A stretch of 64,000 nt of DNA from Dermatophagoides farinae (lineage: Eukaryota; Arthropoda; Arachnida; Sarcoptiformes; Pyroglyphidae): positions 4,529,001 through 4,593,000 of the forward strand of contig NC_134677.1 of assembly GCF_024713945.1 (NCBI RefSeq), in the 5' to 3' direction. A model generated the notes under the pieces. The model saw only the letters and a list, made by a program, of their open reading frames with translations, was not told where the DNA came from and did no database searches. The translations under genes and the position numbers were made by a program. Below, in pieces: positions 2,042 through 44,100 of the stretch. Within the stretch, counting starts at the first letter, position 1. Each line of letters opens with the position of its first letter.

Positions 2042-4297
2042 ATGTTCATTCGAGATTATGAAAAAGATAAAGAAATTATTCGTAAAGTGATTCTCGGTCC
2101 GAATTATACGGAAAAATTAATCAAGATTGCCGACCGAGACGAAATCATATTGTCAATCGATTTGGATGATGTCGAAAAAGTTGATCCAGATTTATGTGCA
2201 GCAATCGTTAACAATACGAAACGCTATGTTCAACTATTCTGTCAAGTTGTCGATGAAATTTTGCCAGATTTTCGTGTGAGAGAAAATGTTTCTAAAGATA
2301 AGTTGGACGTATTCATTGAACATCGTATTCTGGCCGAGATGCGTAATCGTCAAGAAGAAAATCAAGGTGATTTAAGCGCACAGAATATTGCTACTAAATA
2401 TCCACCTGAATTGATGCGTCGATATGAACTTTATTTTAAACCGCCAACTACACAAAAACCGATTCCTGTTCGTCAGGTACGTGGCAAAGATATTGGTAAA
2501 TTGGTTTCAATAACTGGTGTGGTTACTCGATGTGCCGAAGTGAAACCATTGATGGTGGTTGCCACCTACACTTGCGATTCATGTGGTTCTGAAACTTATC
2601 AACCGATCGGTTCACAATCATTCATGCCATTGGAACGTTGTACTAGCCAAGAATGTAAAGCTAATAAAACATCGGGCCGATTAAGTCTACAATCACGTGG
2701 TTCGAAATTTATGAAATTTCAGGAGATACGCGTGCAAGAACATAGCCGCGATGTTCCCGTAGGTAATATTCCGCGTAGTATCAGTGCTATTTGTCGTGGT
2801 GAAATGACCCGACAATGTGCACCCGGTGATCATGTCAATGTATCTGGTATATTTTTGCCAATAAATCGAACTGGATTCCGACAAATGGTCGCTGGTTTAC
2901 TTGCTGATACATACATTGAAACGCATTGTATTTCAGTTACGAATAAAACGTTGGAAGAAGACGAATACGATATGACTGATGAAGAATTTATCAGAATGAT
3001 TGAAAATGAAAATATTAATATTAATCGATTGGCAAGCAGTATCGCTCCAGAAATTTACGGCCATTTAGATCTTAAAAAAGCTTTACTTTTATTATTAGTT
3101 GGTGGTGTGGATCAGAACACTGCAGGTATGAAAATTCGTGGAGCTATCAACATTTGTTTAATGGGCGATCCTGGTGTGGCTAAATCTCAATTGCTTGGCT
3201 TTATCGGTAAGGATTTTCTTTTTTTAAAAAACTTTATTGATTAATTTTATTTCTAATAATAATTAAGATCGAGTTGCTACACGAAGTGTCTATACAAATG
3301 GCCGAGGTTCATCGGGTGTTGGTTTGACTGCAGCCGTTATGAAAGATTCGATTACTGGAGAGTTTGTTCTTGAAGGTGGTGCTTTAGTATTAGCCGATCA
3401 AGGCATCTGTTGTATTGATGAATTCGATAAGATGCTTGAAGCAGATCGTACAGCCATACACGAAGTGATGGAACAGCAAACAATTTCGATTGCCAAAGCT
3501 GGTATTATGACCACCTTGAATGCTAGAGTATCGATTTTGGCTGCTGCCAATCCAGTATATGGGCGATATAATACAAAAAAATCAATCGAACATAATATTC
3601 AACTTCCAGCAGCTTTATTGTCTCGTTTTGATCTTTTGTGGTTGATTACGGATCAGCCGGACAAAGATAATGATTTTAAATTGGCCCAGCATATTGCCTA
3701 CGTACACCAGAATTGTACGCAGCCTAAGCTCCAATTTGAACCATTGTCAATCAAAGTAATGCGTCGTTTTATCCAAGTTGCACGCCGTCATAATCCAGTG
3801 ATACCACCGCATCTAACAGAAGATATTGTTGCTGCATACATCAATATGCGAAATGAAGCTCGAAATAATCAGAATATGACTTTCACTTCCCCACGAACAT
3901 TGTTGGCAATATTACGTTTATCGACTGCTTTGGTTTGTGATGAATTTCTAACAATTTAGCAATTCTTATAGATTTTATTTTTTTTTATTAGGCAAGGATT
4001 CGACTTGCTGACACCGTTGACCGCGTCGATATTTGTGAAGCTATGCGATTGATTGCCGCATCCAAAGCCTCTATTCAACCAAATCAAGAGGATAAACCTG
4101 CTGTATCGAAAATCACTAAAATCTATCAAATCATTCATAATATGGCTGAAGATCGTGTGGTGAATATGGCCGATGCTATTGAACGTTGTATCATTCTTGG
4201 ATATTCAAACGATGATATCGAAGAAGCCATTGAAGAATTCGAAAATAACAACATGTGGAGTGTTACCAAAGATGGATCTCGTATTCTTTTTGTCTAA
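2042..4297 (+). CDS. MCM7: MCM7 replicative helicase subunit
   Basis: DNA replication licensing factor MCM7, a subunit of the nuclear MCM2-7 helicase that unwinds origins and forks with CDC45 and GINS. Three exons join in frame: 2042-3206, 3268-3932 and 3992-4297, giving 711 residues against about 720 in vertebrates. The introns are 61 and 59 bases. The N-terminal zinc-binding cysteines are Cys178, Cys181, Cys200 and Cys205. The AAA+ core has Walker [10 protein letters not shown] (Lys381), Walker [10 protein letters not shown] (Asp439, Glu440) and the arginine-finger motif SRFD. The first splice junction falls inside the conserved [19 protein letters not shown] block and restores it exactly. 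The C-terminal winged-helix region is present. All catalytic motifs are intact. The gene is divergent from HDHD2 and convergent with BOP1, 154 bases away. Confidence 0.97.
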
Positions 4298-14588: not shown

Positions 14589-16037
14589 TTTTGGCTGTTG
14601 GTTTCCAATAATAAAAGGTAAATATTGTAATAATATTGTATTAGGTCAATGATTAAGCACTATTTGAGATTTTTTCTGGGTATCACACAACAATAACAAA
14701 ACGATTGCAATGACAAATCATTAATTAGCAAACAAAAACAGCTTTAATAATACCATGGGTTCTAATAGTGATTATCATCGATGGCAATTAAAAACGACCA
14801 CAATACAGTATAAAGGATAGGATGATTCACACTTACAATAATTTGATGGATTTGTGACTGAATCAAACTAGTTGCAATCACTTTTTCCACGTTGCTTCTT
14901 ATCCAAATTTGTAATAATGTGGCAAAATTGGTCGTTTAATAAATGTGGATGTTTATATGAAACTCAATAGAAATAGAAAATAAATTGACAATAACAATAA
15001 TAAAATCTCGTTGTTGTTGTTGTCTGATTGAATCGTCATTCGAATTCATGATTTTGACACAATTAAAATTTATTTATTGATAAATCAATGAAAAATGTGT
15101 TGTTAAAAAAAATAAATCAGTAGAACGGGAACAAAAATTGTATTATCAATGCATTATTTAGCAATGATTTGACTTTTAATTTCATTCAAACTTTTTTTTC
15201 ACTCAGCTTCCTAGTTTTTTTTTCTAAAAAAATATACACAAATACATCATCATCAGGATTATTAAGGATCATAATCATCAAATGATGATGACGACAAAAC
15301 TCTTGAACAATGATCATCAAACTCAGAGCTCAAGCTTGCTGAACTTGTTGCTCATTTCACATAACATACGTACACATACACAGACTCTGGAGACCAATAT
15401 ATTAAAACGGCCACATTCTTTCATTGGTTTTTCATTTTTTTTTCAACGTTTTTTCCACACTCTCACAGAAACTGGTCCTGGCCAGTATCAATTGTTAGCT
15501 GCAGCGTTACAGCGCCTAATGCAGCTATAACCTAAAACTCACCTATGAATTTCAATATTTTTTCGACTGGTCTTTATTGGACAAAAATTGAAAAGGAAAA
15601 TTTGTTTAGATTCTTCAAATTTTGCCACTGGACAGGTACATTCTTGAGATTTTTTTAAAATATTCATTTATATAATTTAATAAATTATGCAATATAGCTA
15701 TTTAAAATCTTTTTAGTTTATTTTCATTTTGCAGGTTTATCCACAAAGCAAAATCCTGTCAAACTGGATCTCAAAAATGAACTTTTTCTCTCCTAATTTG
15801 TTGGTTAATTATCATTTTCAATAATAGATGGCATCGATACCAAAAATGGTTCAACATGTGTTGTATATATACAATATATATAGAATTGTAATTCTATAGA
15901 ATATAGAATATGATAAAAACAAATTCCAATTTGGTAATTTGGTTTAAAAATAATGTGGTAAATTTGTTTTTATTAAATTTATTTCATATCAACCTTATTC
16001 GTTTTTTCCTCCTAATATAGAAACGAATAAATACAAT
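14589..16037. other. Intergenic region between sowah and the POLB-like gene
   Basis: This 1.45-kb AT-rich spacer lies between divergent genes and should hold both promoters. Most of it is unremarkable. A GC-richer patch at 15469-15531 stands out: a good pyrimidine-tract acceptor ending at 15470 precedes a short open frame (TGPGQYQLLAAALQRLMQL then stop), which also contains the inverted repeat TAGCTGCA/TGCAGCTA. An AGATGGCATCGATA string begins at 15826. No complete additional gene is seen. Confidence 0.35.
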
Positions 16038-17150
16038 ATGTCGGACAATCCGAATAAGGATATTTGTGATATGTTGATCAAATTAGGCGAACATGAACGC
16101 GATGTCAATGGTATCATTTATAAATATCATGCCTATCGAAAAGCTGCTAAAGCTTTAGAAGCATATGGTAAACGAGTAGAATCTGGTGCTGAAGCTCAAA
16201 AATTATCAGGTATCGGACCAAAAATTGCAGCCAAAATAAATGATTTTCTTCAAAATGGTTGTGATGAAGATATTCAAGGTTCATCAAAAGAGATTGAACA
16301 AGAAACATCACCAACATCTGAAAGAAAATCGAAAAAAATTAAAAAAGATGACAAAAAAGATACATCATCGAATCACCATAACAACAAAAGCAACATTGAA
16401 GCCAGTTCTACTGATGATGACCTTATAGAAGAGAGCTTCGATAAAATCTATGGAATGACTAAAATTGATGTAATGTATCTGAAAATCAAAGGCATCAAAA
16501 CGATTGGTGATCTAAGGAATAATATAACGATAGCTGAATTGAATGAAGCTCAACAAATATGTCTAGAACATTATGATGATTTGCGTTTAAAGATATCGCG
16601 TAAAGAAATCAAAAAATTCGAAAAATTAATTTCGCAATCATTGAAAAAATTATCAAACGTAAATGTAGAGATTGAAATTTGTGGTCAGTTTCGTAGAAGG
16701 ATTGAAGAATGTGATAAAATTGATGTGTTGATTATTGATATGAAAACCAAATCTACCGATTCTGATGCTGAACGCAAATTGAAAAAAAGCATGAAAATTA
16801 TTGGCAAAACTCTGCTTGCTGAACATATTATCAAGAAAAGTCTTGCTCTTGATGGTAGTTATTTTGCTGGTATTGTTAATCTAGAACAATCAAGTCCATA
16901 TAGACTAATGAATTTACATGTTGTTCCCAAAGATCAATACGTTGGTGTTCTATTCCATCTGACTGGAAGTGAACAATTCTGGGAACGGATACGTTTACAT
17001 TGCATAAATCAAGGATTCATTTTATCGTCTCGTACACTATGTCGTATTGGCCAAACATTAGTACCAGGTCTACCTATTAAAATCAAAAGTGAAGAAGAAT
17101 TATTTGATTATATTGAATATCCATATGTTGAACCAAAAGATCGACAATGA
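16038..17150 (+). CDS. POLB: DNA polymerase beta-like protein, probably polymerase-inactive
   Basis: Family X polymerase related to DNA polymerase beta (base-excision repair), single exon, 370 residues against 335 in human. The 8-kDa lyase domain is well kept: HAYRKAAKALEAYGKRV, ESGAEAQKLSGIGPKIAAKI, with Lys66 matching the Schiff-base Lys72 of human, plus equivalents of Lys35, Tyr39 and Lys68. A Lys/Ser/Asn-rich insert occupies about residues 75-125. The palm begins CGQFRRRIEECDKIDVLII: aligned without gaps, Lys227 replaces catalytic Asp190, Asp229 keeps Asp192, and Asn292 (MNLHVVPKDQY) replaces Asp256. In the nucleotide-binding segment, TGSEQFW has Trp315 where human has Asn279. The C-terminus ends FDYIEYPYVEPKDRQ, as in the family. 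This looks like an intact, expressed gene with lyase activity and no, or altered, polymerase activity. An AATAAA lies at 17267-17272. Confidence 0.85.
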   Translation: MSDNPNKDICDMLIKLGEHERDVNGIIYKYHAYRKAAKALEAYGKRVESGAEAQKLSGIGPKIAAKINDFLQNGCDEDIQGSSKEIEQETSPTSERKSKKIKKDDKKDTSSNHHNNKSNIEASSTDDDLIEESFDKIYGMTKIDVMYLKIKGIKTIGDLRNNITIAELNEAQQICLEHYDDLRLKISRKEIKKFEKLISQSLKKLSNVNVEIEICGQFRRRIEECDKIDVLIIDMKTKSTDSDAERKLKKSMKIIGKTLLAEHIIKKSLALDGSYFAGIVNLEQSSPYRLMNLHVVPKDQYVGVLFHLTGSEQFWERIRLHCINQGFILSSRTLCRIGQTLVPGLPIKIKSEEELFDYIEYPYVEPKDRQ

Positions 17151-32100: not shown

Positions 32101-35100
32101 ATAATCTGATTGATTTTAATGTTTGATTCAGTTTGATTTTTTCAATATGATTCCGTTGTTGTTGTTGTTGTTTTTTTTTCGTTGTCGTCAATTAAATTCA
32201 AAAATCAACAACAAACTAGATATATTTTGCTATGGCTGACTGATCATATATTCATGTTTGTGTGTGTGTGTTTGTCTTTGCTTGTTTGTTTGTAACAAGA
32301 CGACAAACTTCTAATCTTCTTAGCTTCTTTGCATTCTTACACGCAAACACACACACAGAAGCAATCGAAAGTTTTTCTACGTTTCATTCAAAGACTTAGT
32401 TGAAGCATTATTATCAACCAAGCCAACAGGCCAGGTATACTTCAAAATGCCGACATTTTCCTTGAATCAAATGGAAAAAAATTCCGCAGTTTTTGTATGG
32501 TGACACCTACACATTTAAACTTGTCTTGATGATGATGGAATAAGATGAATCAACCAACCACCGATAAATTTTGACCTACCGCAGTCAATTAGAATGAACA
32601 TCTTGATAGTTCATTGATTCAATTCAATTTTATTATGATAAAGATGAGGGCTTTCATTTCAAGTTTTCATCAAACTGATACAAAACGAAAGAGATTGTGA
32701 GAAAATAAAAATATTCCAGTAGCATTGGTACTGATTTAAGTTAAGCTTAAACTTCAAGTTTAATTTGTAATTCCTGTTTGATGATTCCATGAATTTTTCT
32801 GATGAAATTTTACATTTTTTTTTTTCATTTATCAGCTCAACATGCCTAGTGCATCGACACCTACTTCGTCGACAACATCTGCTATTAGCGCTACAGCTCC
32901 ATTATCAGCTTCATCATCATCAATGGTTCAAAGTCAACAATGTACTAGTTCACCAAATCAACCGGATTTGGTTGTTAGTGCGACAACGACAACATCGATA
33001 AATACATTGACAACACAATCACAACCACCATCATCATCCACATCATCTTCATCTATAATGCCACCACATACATCCGTTTCAACACCAGTTCCATCATCAA
33101 CAACGACAATGGCGACCGCTTGCTGTGAAACTGGTCGCCCAATACTCACTGATCCAATTACAGGCCAATCCATTTGTTCATGTCAATATGATGCACATCT
33201 TTTAAATTATCAACGTTTAGCAGCATCGGCTGGTTTAATGTATAATCCAGCAGCGGCTGCAGCTGCAGCTGCTGCAGCAGCAGCCTATAGTTCATCCTCA
33301 TCGTCATCCTCTTCATCATCATCATCATCGTCATCAACGCCAGGTAGTGGCGGTATTAATCTAGGATCTGATATAGCACCAAATGGTACAATAACAACGA
33401 CAAATACCACCAATAGTACTACATCGACAACAACGACACCATCATTAACAGCAACAGGACCACCTAGTTCAGTCGTACCACCACCACCTGGTTCAGCCGG
33501 TAATGATCCATTTTTACCGCTTTCACCTGAACAATTACAATCAGCGGCATCGTTTTTTCCACCACCGACGGTATGTACAAAATTTGCATATTCATATGTA
33601 TACAAACAGATTGGGAGATACGTTAGTGCGTATACCTAGCCTAGCAGGTGTTTTCAACCAAATTTAAATTTTCCATCTTTTTGCATTTAGTTTTACCAAG
33701 ATCAATCTTCATTTAAAACCAGTAATTAGTAATGACAATTAAGTAAATTACAAGAAAAAATTAAAATAATACACACAAATATGACATATGTACAACGATT
33801 CGCCTAGATGAAGAGAGCATTTTTATGAGATTGAAATAAGTTTTTTTTTCGTACAAAATCATTCACATATAATGAAAGATTTTATTTGTTGATGTTGTCT
33901 TATAATGAAATGAAATTTAGAAAAAAACACGCACACAAAACTACGTTTTATCGTAATTATGATCATTATTCGTTGTTTTTTGTTTGTTTGTTTATTTGTT
34001 TGTTTTACGTAAATCCTAAATCAAAAATCCATCATTTTTCAATATTTAAGACAAGGAAATGTTTCACATATATTTATGATAGATATGACATTGTGATAAT
34101 GATCATTGATGTTTGTTGCTGTTGTTTATCTTGAATACATTATCTTTTTACCTTATTGATGATAATCTTATTATATTAATAATAATTTGATTGCAATTAA
34201 AACATAATGATGATGATTATAATGATTTGATGAAATGATGGAAAATTCACAAATGTCACATGACAAGAGATAATGATGATATATTTTTCTTGTTTGCATA
34301 TGGATCTAATTTTTTAAATTTTTTTTTTCACTCTTATTAAAAACAACAGGCAACCGGATTCGATCTGAAAGAAAATCTAGACATGTGGCGTAATCTACCA
34401 TATTCAATGTATTATCCATATGATAATTCCGGTTTGACCGGATATCCATTCGCTAACGGGTAAGTTTATAGTTAAATAATTACCAATATAGCACATTAAC
34501 ACTAAATGAAGATGTGCATGATCATTACTCTAGATATTTTTGAATTACACATATACTCGAATCTCTTTTTCTTTCTTGAAATAATTATCAATTCGGATGA
34601 TGATGATGATAATTATTCAAAATAAGTGTATATGTGGGAGCCAGATATATATTTGTCTTTATTTTATACAAGAGAAAAGAAAAAAAAATACAAACATCCA
34701 AAAAACCTGCCAAAAAAGACTTGAACATTATTCCTACACACTGTAATACATACATGTCATTTGCATAAGTCGATGTGATAACCAAATGATGATGATGGCA
34801 AAACGAAAGAGAGAAATAGGCGCCAGATGTTTGCTTCAATTTAGTGAGTGAAAGAGAGTCACAAGAATCGAAACTCAATTTTCATTCAAAACTTTTTTCT
34901 TCTTTTTTTTGTCTTTCATTTGTATTGATGATGATGAAGAGCCTATGATGATGTGGATGATGATGATGATGATGATGACAACCACCAAATATCCTAGCAC
35001 AAATGTCACTTCAATACTATATAACACACATAACATACTTGACTCTTGATGATGATGGTGCCATATGAACTGATGATGATGATCATCATCATCATCATCA

Positions 35101-38100: not shown

Positions 38101-41100
38101 TGGGCAATGCCATTGGCAGAGTGGCTGACGGCACATGCATCGCATGGTCGGTTAAGCGATTTTTAAAATTTTCAAGAATTTGGAATTTTTCTTCAACCAA
38201 AATTTTTTGTTGATTTTTTGGTTAGCCAAAATCGTTTTGTGCAATAATTGATCAAAATTTTTCAAAAATTTCATTTTGAAGCATATTTTTCCTATGGCGG
38301 AATAACACAGTGGCTGATAGCGGCCGACCGGATTTTGATCCGCTCTTGAGAAAAAATGAGTTGCGGAAGAATTACGTTCATAATTTTTTTCAACTCCCAG
38401 GACATGTGGAATTTTCATTGAGTGGTCAGATGACCATTACCTCTTTCGTCGGGGTCACCACGAGCAAAAAATCAAAATGGCTAAAATTTTGATTTTTAAT
38501 GGGTCGAATTCCAGAGGCTGGCTAGCACTTCCGGTAGCCAAAGTTGGAAAAAATTTATTTTTGAATTAAAGCCTGATCACCAAAGAATAAATTGAGGTCA
38601 TACATGATGTCAAAACCTTTGCCAAATTTTTGGGACAGTCATTCCAAAAAGTCATATAAAAAAACGACAGTATTTTTCTTACCTCCTAATATATGACTAT
38701 GATGATAAAACTTGTAGAAAAATTTTTTTTTTGTTTTGTTTTGTTTCCATAGCACATTACAAAATCTGATTGTATATTTGTTGTATTTATCAGGAATTCT
38801 CTCTCGCTCTGTGATCATAGATGATCGATCGAAAAAAAATATTTCCAACGATAGAATTATTATGCTTAATGTTGGTTGTTTCTGTCTGTATCAAACATTT
38901 GTCTAACAGGCATTGATTATTGTTTATGGTTATTATTATCATGGATTCTATAGATTCACATAACACATTTTTGAAAAACAGAAAAACAGTAATCATAATA
39001 TACAAATTCTTGATGTTTTAATGTTATCATAATGTTTTGTCATATTGTTTGTAGTGCGATATAATCATATTATGGTTACAATCTATATCGCTCATAAGTT
39101 TGGCCTTTTTTTTACAAAGCAACTATATTATCATTTTTTCTTTGGATGGGGGGTATGAAATACACACATTTACACCAAAAAAAAAAAAACGAAATCTGAG
39201 AATTTGGAAAGTTTTACTTTCTTCACAAATGAAGAAAAAAAAATGATAATTATTATGAATAGGTCCTATTGGACCAATTGATATTGGTATCAAATTCATG
39301 ATGATATTCTCTTGTATTTTGTTGAGCTTTCTCTCTCTCTTATTATATTTACACTGTTGTATATTTGTAATCGAAGTGATTATAATTTATTAGACTAGTT
39401 CCATTAGCCGTTCATAATGTTTGAATTTGAACACATACGATATATACATCTATTCGACAAGTGTTTTAAAGTGTTATGTATCCCTCAATTTTTCTCTCTT
39501 TCTTATGTAGAGAAAAAAGAAAAAAAGAGAGATCAAATACAGCACATAAGTTTTTTTTGATTCAAAATATCTATTCAAATTTTTTTTATCAATATCATGT
39601 AAGTTTAACATTGCTAGAATCATGTACACTACCGTTATGTTCATTGAATCGAAACCTGTTCCCTATTCATAGTTTTATAGTTTGTTTTTCCACACATACA
39701 AATACATACGCACAAATCATCATTTAGAATTTTTTTCCTTTTTTTATGCCTTACACAAGAATCTCTTGTATTCGGTAAATTCAAAAAAAACATATAATTG
39801 AGCTTTAGAGTGAGAGAGAGAGTTCAATTGAGACATTATCGCCATCATCATCATCATTGCAATAAATATTCGGTTGTTTTTATGCTAAAAGTTGTTTTTT
39901 GTGTCATTTTTTTTCGTTAAAATAAAATTGAAAATAAATTTTTTTTGTTTGTTTGTTTGTTTGCGTTTTATCATTCTAAAACTAACGAAAAAAAGAGCAC
40001 AAAAAGTTGGGTAGGTTGGTTAGAAAGTGTGAATTGTGTGACGATAAATGACATCAATACATACAAATACATCGGATATAGCAAATAATCCAACAACTTT
40101 AATAACGACAAAATTGGATAGAAAGCTTACATGGGCCATTTACATATATATGAAATACACAGAGCTCAATGATCATTTTTTGTGATTTTGATAACACAAA
40201 GCCAGTTTCATTCAGGCAAGCTAATAAATTCTAATAATCTAACAAATGTTTTTTTTGGACGAATTTTTTTCAGAAGCATATTTTGAATAGCAGTGAACTG
40301 CCAGTGAAAAGAAAAAAAAACGTTTTTCAATCTCAATTTCAATATGTTTGTGTGTTGTTGGTAATATAAATAGTGTAAATTGAGGCAATAAATTTTCACT
40401 CTAACACTACCAGAAAATAAAATGGAAAGCCAATCTCATAAGATTGGTTTCAGATGAAATTCAGAAAAAGATGTGTACACACACACATTCATTTTCTATT
40501 TGTTTTTGATATTTTTTAAAATTCATACTCTTCTTTGAATATTTTTTGTTGAGATTTAGAAATCAATAAAATTCTTATAATCTTCATATAGATAAATATC
40601 AATTTGTTGGCCAATGTCATGGCCAAACCAAATTGAGGAATACTATGAATGTAAGCAAGAAATTCATGTTTTTTGCATATGAATTGAAAAATTGCGAAAA
40701 ACCAACAGATCAAAAAAAAAAATGATTATTTTTTGAATAATGTTTTGTTGAAGAATGAAAATGACCTCCCACTATTTTGTGTATATAATAATAATATATA
40801 GTAGTAGTAGAAAAAAGACGTTTAGTCACGGTGAAATATAATTTTGATAATTTATATCATCATTATCAAAATGATGATGATGATGATTGCGATCATAACA
40901 AATCGAATGAATGATAAATTTTTTTTCTGTTGTTGTTGTTGTCATTTTAATGGTGATGTTTCGATGTGACTGTCCATTTATCCATTTATTATTATTATTA
41001 TATTTTGTTTTTGGTTATATAATTTTGAAATTTGTCGATCTGTGTGGCTATTGATATATATTCAGTGAAGGAAAAATGCTTCTAAGAAAAAAAAATATGA

Positions 41101-44100
41101 AATTAATCCCATTCGACGTCAGACATTTAGATATATTCGTAAATACATGGATATATGAAAAAAAATATGTTGTCAATCTCAAATTTCGATCTTTATTAAT
41201 TATGTCTTTACTTGTTTATAAATCTTTTACTTGTTTATTTTATTTTCTTATGCTTCTTTTATTCATTCATTCATTCATTTTTTTTCTTGTTTATTACAGA
41301 TATGGTATGGATCTCAATGGAGCAAGACGAAAAAATGCAACCAGAGAGACGACAAGTACATTGAAAGCATGGCTTAATGAACATCGAAAAAATCCTTATC
41401 CAACTAAAGGCGAAAAAATTATGTTGGCTATTATAACAAAAATGACATTAACACAGGTATCAACATGGTTTGCAAATGCAAGACGACGGCTAAAAAAAGA
41501 AAATAAAATGACATGGTCACCAAGAAACCGTTGTGATGATGATGATGATGATCCGGATGATGTTAAAGATGGTAAGTGGTTTAGCAGAGATGTGGCAAAT
41601 GTACTTGAATAAATACAAAAAAAAACACACAGACATTTATAAATAGACAATGGTAATAATTTGAAGATCATTACCGGTTGGAGAAAAAGAGATTATAGCA
41701 TTGCGTCGTGAAAAAAAAATTACGATCATTACTATGAATAAATGAATAATGTTTTTGTATTTAAGTTCTATGTGGCTGTGATAAAATTAGTGGCCAAAAA
41801 ATACCGACAATTTTTTGACTATTATACTAATGTATAATACGTCACTATTATTGGTCCACTATTATAATGATGGAAATGTTTGTGCTCGTCACCACAACCA
41901 CACAAACATAAACGGAAATAATAAGTTAGCAGAACCAATAATAATAATGATAATCATGTGATTACAGTGTCAAATTTGGCACCTTTTTTATGCTATATAG
42001 CAGATTTTAGGTTTTTTTTTCTTTCAAGAAAAATTCAAAATAAAAATAGAAAAACATTAGATTTGATGGTAGATTATACTGTAAACTAGACTTTGATTTG
42101 AATCCAAATTCGTATCCAACATATGTCACAGAACGCCCACACACAGACACACACACACTTTTGAATCGAAACTTATGTGGTAAAATTTATGTAGGCCTAG
42201 CCATATCATTATTATAATGGCATCTAGAATGAAAAGAAATATCGTTTCATCAAATTTACACTCACAGATATATGAATAAATAGTTCACATCAAATGATCA
42301 CCTTTTTTCGATTGAATGATGGTAATGATCATAAGTCACCAGTTTCAACGAAAAAAAAGAAAGAAAATGGTTGAAATAAAATTGTTCATCCGTGTAATTA
42401 ATGTACGGATTTTTTTCAGTCTATGATATCAATGAATTCAGCGAGATTAACGCCTTGTTTGGTTGGTCATAGAATACAAGCCAATCTTTTTGATTTTTTG
42501 ATTTGTTTTTTTTTTGCTCGTATATAAAAAGACAAAATAAATAAATGAATGGATGTTTGTTTGTGTGTGTGTGTATGTGTGTGAGGACTCAAATTAATAT
42601 TGAATTTACTTCCAATTTTTTTTCATCTAAATTTGGATCTTTTCGTTTGTGATGGTGTTGATGATTAATAGTTGTGTTAATGAAGAGAGATGAAAAAAAA
42701 AGTTATAAAAAATTTGATAGCAAACTAAACCAATAGGCTGTAAAATACTTGAAAGATATATCGATGACAAGTTAACGAACGAATTGAGTGGTATAAATAA
42801 TAACCAAAATGAATTGACATTTTGTCAACCATTAATTCATAGAATACATTTGTTGTTGTTGTTTTTGTTTTTTTTATTCATTCAAAGCTCTAGCGATTCA
42901 ATATATTGTAACATATATATATATGGTCGGCATTTTTTTCAATTTAGACATATCATTCAACATGTATATGGATATTCCCAATTGGAATTCTGTCTGTCGT
43001 ATGAAATTAGCTTCTTTTATATTTCTGTTCTGTGTGTACATGTGTTTGAAAATTCATTTGTCTCCATCACAATCACATGGTCATGGCATCCATACCACGA
43101 TCTCTTAGAAATTTTCTTTCTGTATCATTTTCTTTCTCTTTTTCTCTGGGTCTCTGGTGACCTGTCTTCAAATTGAGTGCGAAAAAAAAATTTCTCCGGG
43201 TCGCTCAGTCGCTTTTTGTATTTGATGATTAATTAATCCAACAGACACATTTATTTTCATTCATGTTGATTCATATTGTTTAATTTGTTTTTTCTTTTCT
43301 GCATTTCATCTTGACAGATGATAGTGATATTGTTGACATTGAAGATGATTCGGAATCAAAACCGCACAATAATATCCACCATCATAATCATCATCAAACA
43401 AATCATAATAACCATCATAATAATAAACGAGAATGTTCACCATTATCCGATGTTGGTTCATTATCCGATTCAGATGTTTTACTCAGCCAGCATAAAGGAA
43501 TACCGTCTCATCTTCATCATCATTCTCATCCACATTTAGGAGCAAATAGTCGATTACAAGCCTTACATCATCAGTTAGCTGCTGCTGCTGCAGCAGCAGC
43601 CGCTGCTAGTGATAGTGGAAACGGTGGTGGTGATATTAAACCTCGAATCTGGTCAATTGTAGATACGGCAACTACCAATAATCCTAATAGTCTTCATCAT
43701 TCATCATCAAATCATACAAATAACAATAATAATCATCATCATAATTCATCATCATCATCATCACTATCACCAGGAGCCAAATCTTCTGCTTCGGGTGGCA
43801 GTATTGGCCCGATCTCACCAATCGCTGCCAATCGTGCAGCTCGTCTTGATTATTTGACTGCTCCATATCTGAAACCAGGTTCAAATACAGCCACAGGTAA
43901 TGGTGCTAATGCAGCAGCAGCAGTTGCCGCTGCTGCTGCCGCAGCAGCATTACCACCAAGTTGGTATCCACCAGCAGCAGCTTTTGGCCATTCTGGTTCT
44001 GGGACTCCATCACCATTTCCAGCATCATTATATTCTTGTCCACCGGCTTTAATGAGTCAATTGATGGCAGCAAATGCTGCAGCAGCAGCAGCAGCAGCAG

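Follow-up and report, generated by a model that had tools for sequence, protein, structure and literature searches.

A mite DNA polymerase beta homologue that appears to have lost polymerase catalysis and kept the lyase lysine

Which activity of DNA polymerase beta (pol beta), lyase or polymerase, matters most in an animal has been argued from work on mice and cells. Relatives with altered active sites have been described in prokaryotes. In the available text of Prostova et al. 2022 (PMC9226535), 809 prokaryotic family X polymerases (PolX), 27.5% of those analysed, have altered catalytic triads, two Deinococcus PolX were demonstrated to be without polymerase activity, and the authors read such noncanonical proteins as DNA-processing factors. 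Among arthropods, dipterans such as Drosophila and Aedes are without PolX and have been proposed to rely on the long-patch form of base excision repair alone, with Aedes retaining XRCC1, PARP1, and pol theta (available text of PMC6849265); on that account an animal can live without synthesis by PolX. No inactive pol beta of an animal or a mite appeared among the literature matches listed, in a search that left most subscription papers outside. The accessible part of PMC11646218 holds nothing bearing on an inactive animal pol beta, and that of PMC9456212 holds one table entry on base excision repair in Sarcoptes, with no bearing on an inactive pol beta. Here we describe a gene in a 64,000-nucleotide stretch of the Dermatophagoides farinae genome (contig NC_134677.1, positions 4,529,001 to 4,593,000; hereafter the window, in which positions are counted) that encodes a pol beta homologue. 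A first-pass annotation had proposed that this protein lost polymerase catalysis and retained the lyase lysine, and the sequence, a family-wide alignment, and the argument from the open frame support that proposal.

The polymerase active site and the lyase domain

The product of the gene is the mite POLB orthologue. The frame runs from ATG to TGA over 370 codons without an internal stop, and its openness, already noted in the first-pass annotation, is borne out by the open reading frame and its translation. Four Pfam modules score above their cut-offs and the other families all fall below theirs. In a phmmer search of the PDB, pol beta chains came out on top (E 4.6e-50, 174 bits), compared with E 5.3e-18 and 68 bits for the best pol lambda. 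In a tree of 20 sequences, the mite protein groups with human pol beta (support 0.96) on a long branch, the terminal branch lengths being 1.65 for the mite and 0.39 for human beta. The pol beta fold, consisting of the 8-kDa, D, palm, and thumb parts, was recovered by Pfam, phmmer, the predicted structure, and a VIA-align structure search. The marks of a pseudogene (stops, frameshifts, and truncation) are absent, all 370 codons being open and both ends aligning to pol beta.

The pairing CGSFRRGAESSGDMDVL / CGQFRRRIEECDKIDVL contains no gap and places Lys227 at Asp190, Asp229 at Asp192, and Asp226 at Gly189. Identities flank the Asp190/Asp192 stretch (CG.FRR..E and.DVL), and the ungapped alignment together with these identities makes the register secure. 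The pairing RRIDIRLIPKDQY / RLMNLHVVPKDQY places Asn292 at Asp256, and elsewhere Trp315 stands at Asn279. Only one of the three catalytic aspartates of an active pol beta (190, 192, and 256) is retained. The replacements at Asp190 and Asp256 and the retained Asp192, as given in the first-pass annotation, were confirmed by phmmer and by the family-wide alignment, and that at Asn279 by alignment. The annotation had also cautioned that Asp226 might stand in for Asp190. Asp226 instead pairs with Gly189, and the 256 strand (RLMNLHV) carries no acid; on these grounds a one-residue shift that would restore three carboxylates was rejected.

Judged from the alignments, the apparent catalytic loss exceeds the three substitutions first listed, since further pocket and switch residues are changed (S180Q, G189D, R149K, R258H, Y271H, F272L, E295S, and Y296R). 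We take R258, E295, and Y296 to be switch residues, and S180 and R149 to be triphosphate contacts. On hand-picked lists of 15 polymerase-site and 10 lyase-site residues, the mite protein retains 4 of the former and differs from human beta at 11, whereas human pol lambda retains 13; each retains 6 of the 10 lyase-site residues. The contrast between the mite protein and lambda over the two lists gives p 0.0025. Residues retained in the mite are R182, R183, T273, G274, S275, R283, G290, E316, P330, and R333.

The same positions were reached without human sequences. In an alignment of 49 rows (the mite protein, 46 prokaryotic PolX, and two viral PolX), the Asp columns of the family fall on mite residues 227, 229, and 292; the first two columns were pre-fixed by the DNA pattern used for retrieval, and the third was not. 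The palm DNA pattern yielded 14 viral and at least 118 prokaryotic stretches, with at least 131 motif-bearing frames, of which at least 103 passed the length filter. Removal of a fusion (L019_217) and addition of two partial viral frames (L022 and L028) led to a set of 104 PolX. Columns 179-184, 189, 190, and 192 were set wholly or almost wholly by the retrieval pattern, so that conservation there is not independent evidence, and by the design of the pattern the set excludes inactive PolX. In columns free of the pattern, the 104 PolX among the matches listed have D256 in 101, R258 in 101, Y271 in 97, N279 in 97, E295 in 100, R149 in 102, G107 in 103, and K72 in 87. At the near-invariant D256, R258, Y271, N279, E295, R149, and G107, the mite protein has N, H, H, W, S, K, and T, respectively. 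Searches with the mite protein and with alignments A1 and A2 gave no confirmed relative among viral contigs; alignment A2 gave none among genome contigs, and the mite protein none among phages. As far as the sequence can tell, the pattern of the palm is that of a folded, catalytically dead domain.

The lyase domain is the best-conserved part of the mite protein, with 35/78 residues identical to human beta, compared with 27/105 in the palm and 29/72 in the thumb; the corresponding values for lambda are 23/70, 38/103, and 29/72. Lys66 coincides with Lys72 of pol beta, as first proposed and now confirmed by the alignments, and we take Lys72 to be the Schiff-base lysine. K35, Y39, K68, and the hairpin glycines G64 and G66 are also retained. 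A low-complexity insert behind the lyase domain had been described as well; it is real and spans about residues 76-137. A lysine-rich run in this linker, ERKSKKIKKDDKK, is by eye a possible nuclear localisation signal.

Table 1. Features of the pol beta homologue gene, in window positions
Feature	Position	Strand	Basis
3' splice-site-like pyrimidine run ending AG	16000..16020	+	by eye; ATG 18 bases downstream
pol beta homologue coding sequence, 370 residues plus stop	16038..17150	+	open reading frame, Pfam, phmmer
8-kDa lyase domain, HHH_8, residues 4-75	16047..16262	+	Pfam 70.1 bits (cut-off 30)
Lys66 codon (pol beta Lys72)	16233..16235	+	alignment
low-complexity linker/insert, about residues 76-137, with lysine-rich run	16263..16448	+	alignment; predicted local distance difference test (pLDDT) <50 at residues 93-140
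D-subdomain, DNA_pol_lambd_f, residues 144-182	16467..16583	+	Pfam
palm domain, residues 185-298, profile 1-113 of 113	16590..16931	+	Pfam 55.6 bits (cut-off 25)
Lys227 codon at place of catalytic Asp190	16716..16718	+	alignments
Asp229 codon (Asp192), sole metal ligand retained	16722..16724	+	alignments
Asn292 codon at place of catalytic Asp256	16911..16913	+	alignments
thumb domain, residues 305-370, with W315 (N279), S331 (E295), R332 (Y296)	16950..17147	+	Pfam
Trp315 codon at place of Asn279	16980..16982	+	alignment

The 5' untranslated region of the gene likely contains an intron, as its sequence suggests (Table 1). Elsewhere in the window, two frames at 2042-3959 resemble, by eye, exons of an MCM helicase gene, and frames at 32842-33639 and 41076-41612 resemble, also by eye, parts of an Iroquois/TALE-type homeobox gene.

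Family X and other repair genes in the genome

The genome (62.4 Mb, 22 contigs) was searched exon by exon, a procedure that a gene split into many short exons could escape. The palm, thumb, and D-subdomain profiles each match only the present gene, and no second family X polymerase was found in the 62.4 Mb. A canonical POLB copy, for which the first-pass annotation had suggested looking, turned up in none of five whole-genome searches. The pol beta homologue is thus the only family X polymerase found. The HHH_8 profile matches two places, namely the pol beta gene and MUS81 (with ERCC4 and EME1-MUS81_C domains). A second place found with the whole-protein query has an E of 0.69 and three stops, and was rejected as fortuitous. 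Other repair genes were recovered as long frames (pol theta, 856 residues; PARP1-like, 531; ligase 1, 584; pol gamma, 1048), so that introns are unlikely to have hidden a canonical PolX from the searches.

Among possible partners, an XRCC1_N domain is present (34.6 bits, profile 18-90 of 148) with a BRCT domain at the same locus, and the PARP1-like frame, named by eye, has two zf-PARP domains. A pol theta-type domain at C6:4045801-4047075 matches pol theta in the PDB with E 1e-82 and pol nu with 8e-58, and its gene is a candidate gap filler. Ligase domains occur at four places: one belongs to ligase 1, one to a ligase-1-like frame of contig C11, and the remaining two to pieces of an mRNA capping enzyme frame. 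At none of these four places found by the exon-by-exon search is ligase 3 or 4 the best match. The Ku domain (PF02735) was found nowhere in the genome, its control being positive only in Bacillus, and the Ku_N profile likewise matched no place, a result that is uninformative since its control was silent everywhere. Classical end joining may have been lost in the mite, although an exon-by-exon search does not make this firm.

The second ligase-1-like frame (C11:50536-51210) is long (732 residues) and uninterrupted. At C15:39630-39905, a helicase-like frame, in which a zf-PARP-like match stays below the cut-off, adjoins an XPD-like frame, named by eye, on the opposite strand. These repair genes on the small contigs C11 and C15 possibly come from a symbiont or contaminant; by its G+C content C11 (0.302) does not stand out, and C15 (0.354) only slightly. 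The genome also has seven group-2-allergen-like places, the best of which matches Der p 2 and Der f 2 at no more than 109 bits; this fits a mite and, judged from that one place, would suggest a genus other than Dermatophagoides.

Selection and possible roles of the protein

Neutral decay of this gene was simulated under an AT-rich composition, with indels set to 10% of the substitutions and 1500 runs at each distance. The frame was intact in 0.13% of the runs at a distance of 0.05 substitutions per site, where a mean of 1.5 of 13 active-site positions had changed. None of the 1500 runs kept it at 0.1, by which point 2.7 positions had changed, and at 0.8 the number of changed positions reached 10.2. 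The 13 sites were picked for differing in the mite; the change of all 13 is therefore true by choice, and the unselected figure is 11/15. The simulated frame is lost long before that many sites change, suggesting that the polymerase site decayed in a protein that was itself being maintained. We infer that the gene is still "kept by selection", as the first-pass annotation put it, and its suggestion of a "repurposed dRP-lyase" (dRP, deoxyribose phosphate) is a plausible role for a protein with a putative lyase activity.

The reading that we lean towards is that mite pol beta is a dRP-lyase and gap-binding pseudo-polymerase, with gap filling passed to other polymerases. The protein would bind nicks and one-nucleotide gaps at incised abasic sites through its 8-kDa and thumb domains, and Lys66 would form a Schiff base with the 5'-dRP group and remove it by beta-elimination. 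It may also tether the break to XRCC1. The gap would then be filled by a candidate replicative polymerase (delta or epsilon) or pol theta in a long-patch-like route and sealed by ligase 1. The inert palm, with Lys227 at the former metal site, might serve as a DNA clamp, which is speculation. More tentatively, we suggest that selection turned the sole family X polymerase into a dRP-lyase and gap clamp, short-patch repair being split with another polymerase and ligase 1, and end joining possibly lost.

Several observations weigh against this assignment. In the lyase pocket, K60, E71, and K84 are not preserved, and a tyrosine takes the place of H34, in a column where aromatic residues are the rule: Phe or Tyr in 103 of the 104 PolX among the matches listed and Trp in lambda. 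G107 of the second helix-hairpin-helix is Thr141 in the mite, a replacement that may weaken DNA binding. V303, presumably part of the XRCC1-facing loop, is Gln, which may weaken XRCC1 binding. The palm model has middling confidence (blocks of 52-91), and the alignment behind it consisted of active PolX, an input that favours such a fold. Finally, the mite branch is long in all domains (lyase 1.10, D 2.08, palm 2.14, thumb 1.24), including the lyase when compared with human beta (0.08, 0.69, 0.42, and 0.30 in the same order; lambda 1.29, 1.09, 1.14, and 0.33). An acceleration confined to the palm had been expected, and the result was mixed: of the mite domains the lyase evolved most slowly, yet it is not slow relative to human beta.

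The changed pocket residues would also suit a pure scaffold or end binder that has lost both enzyme activities and whose retained function is to bind gaps and bring in partners, for example XRCC1 or PARP1. We consider this unlikely, although the thumb and structural residues R182, R183, G274, R283, E316, and R333 are retained and the XRCC1 N-terminal domain is present in the genome, because the lyase is the best-conserved domain and keeps the Schiff-base lysine, K35, Y39, and K68, and because the XRCC1-facing loop has Gln in place of V303. Fast evolution in all domains, as seen in the terminal branch, could alternatively reflect a decaying gene that lost its polymerase function earlier and is now released from constraint, or became so recently; most insects are without PolX genes, according to the available text of PMC6849265. 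Such decay is less probable still, since the frame is intact over 370 codons, simulated neutral decay breaks the frame early, and the G+C content at codon positions 1, 2, and 3 (0.45, 0.31, and 0.21) resembles that of three of the four neighbouring frames compared; a very recent loss of constraint after decay of the polymerase site is compatible with these data. That the protein still polymerises through a changed mechanism, in which a single metal is held by Asp229 with the possible help of His294 or Asn292, is highly improbable: Asp229 is retained, His294 lies two residues from Asn292 on a predicted strand, and pseudoenzymes with migrated catalytic residues exist (available text of PMC10211241), but Lys227 occupies the metal site, the 256 strand is without a carboxylate, and S180, R149, G189, R258, Y271, F272, and N279 are also changed.

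Comparison with known systems

If the dRP-lyase reading is true, the mite offers a natural separation of function, in which an inert pol beta cleans the 5' end and other enzymes fill and seal the gap. A lineage that apparently keeps the lyase and drops the polymerase, with no paralogue found, would then be a natural experiment on which of the two activities matters most. Given a polymerase that appears dead and no second copy found, the mite may rely on an unusual route for the repair of single damaged bases.

The mite protein resembles vertebrate POLB in its domain order, lyase lysine, C-terminal EPKDR end, tree support (0.96), and length class (370 residues compared with 335), and neither BRCT nor PHP is among its Pfam matches. 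It differs from vertebrate POLB in having other residues at two of the three metal-ligand positions and at most nucleotide contacts, and in the insert that follows the lyase domain. With the noncanonical prokaryotic PolX it shares a substituted triad and deoxynucleoside triphosphate site, and in those proteins too the lyase domain is without specific alterations, according to the available text of PMC9226535. The published idea of an inactive PolX would, if our reading is true, extend from prokaryotes to an animal POLB. The same text describes a PHP exonuclease in the prokaryotic proteins and palm or fingers deletions in many of them. In the mite protein, the PHP domain is absent from the matches to eight Pfam families up to E 10, the protein ending at the thumb, and the palm profile is covered in full, with no deletion. 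Without a PHP nuclease, the lyase is the only candidate activity of the mite protein. As in the insects without PolX described in the available text of PMC6849265, no gap filling by a PolX would be expected in the mite; unlike them, the mite still has the gene and its lyase domain, which, if the reading holds, would show that arthropod PolX can follow another course than outright loss of the gene.
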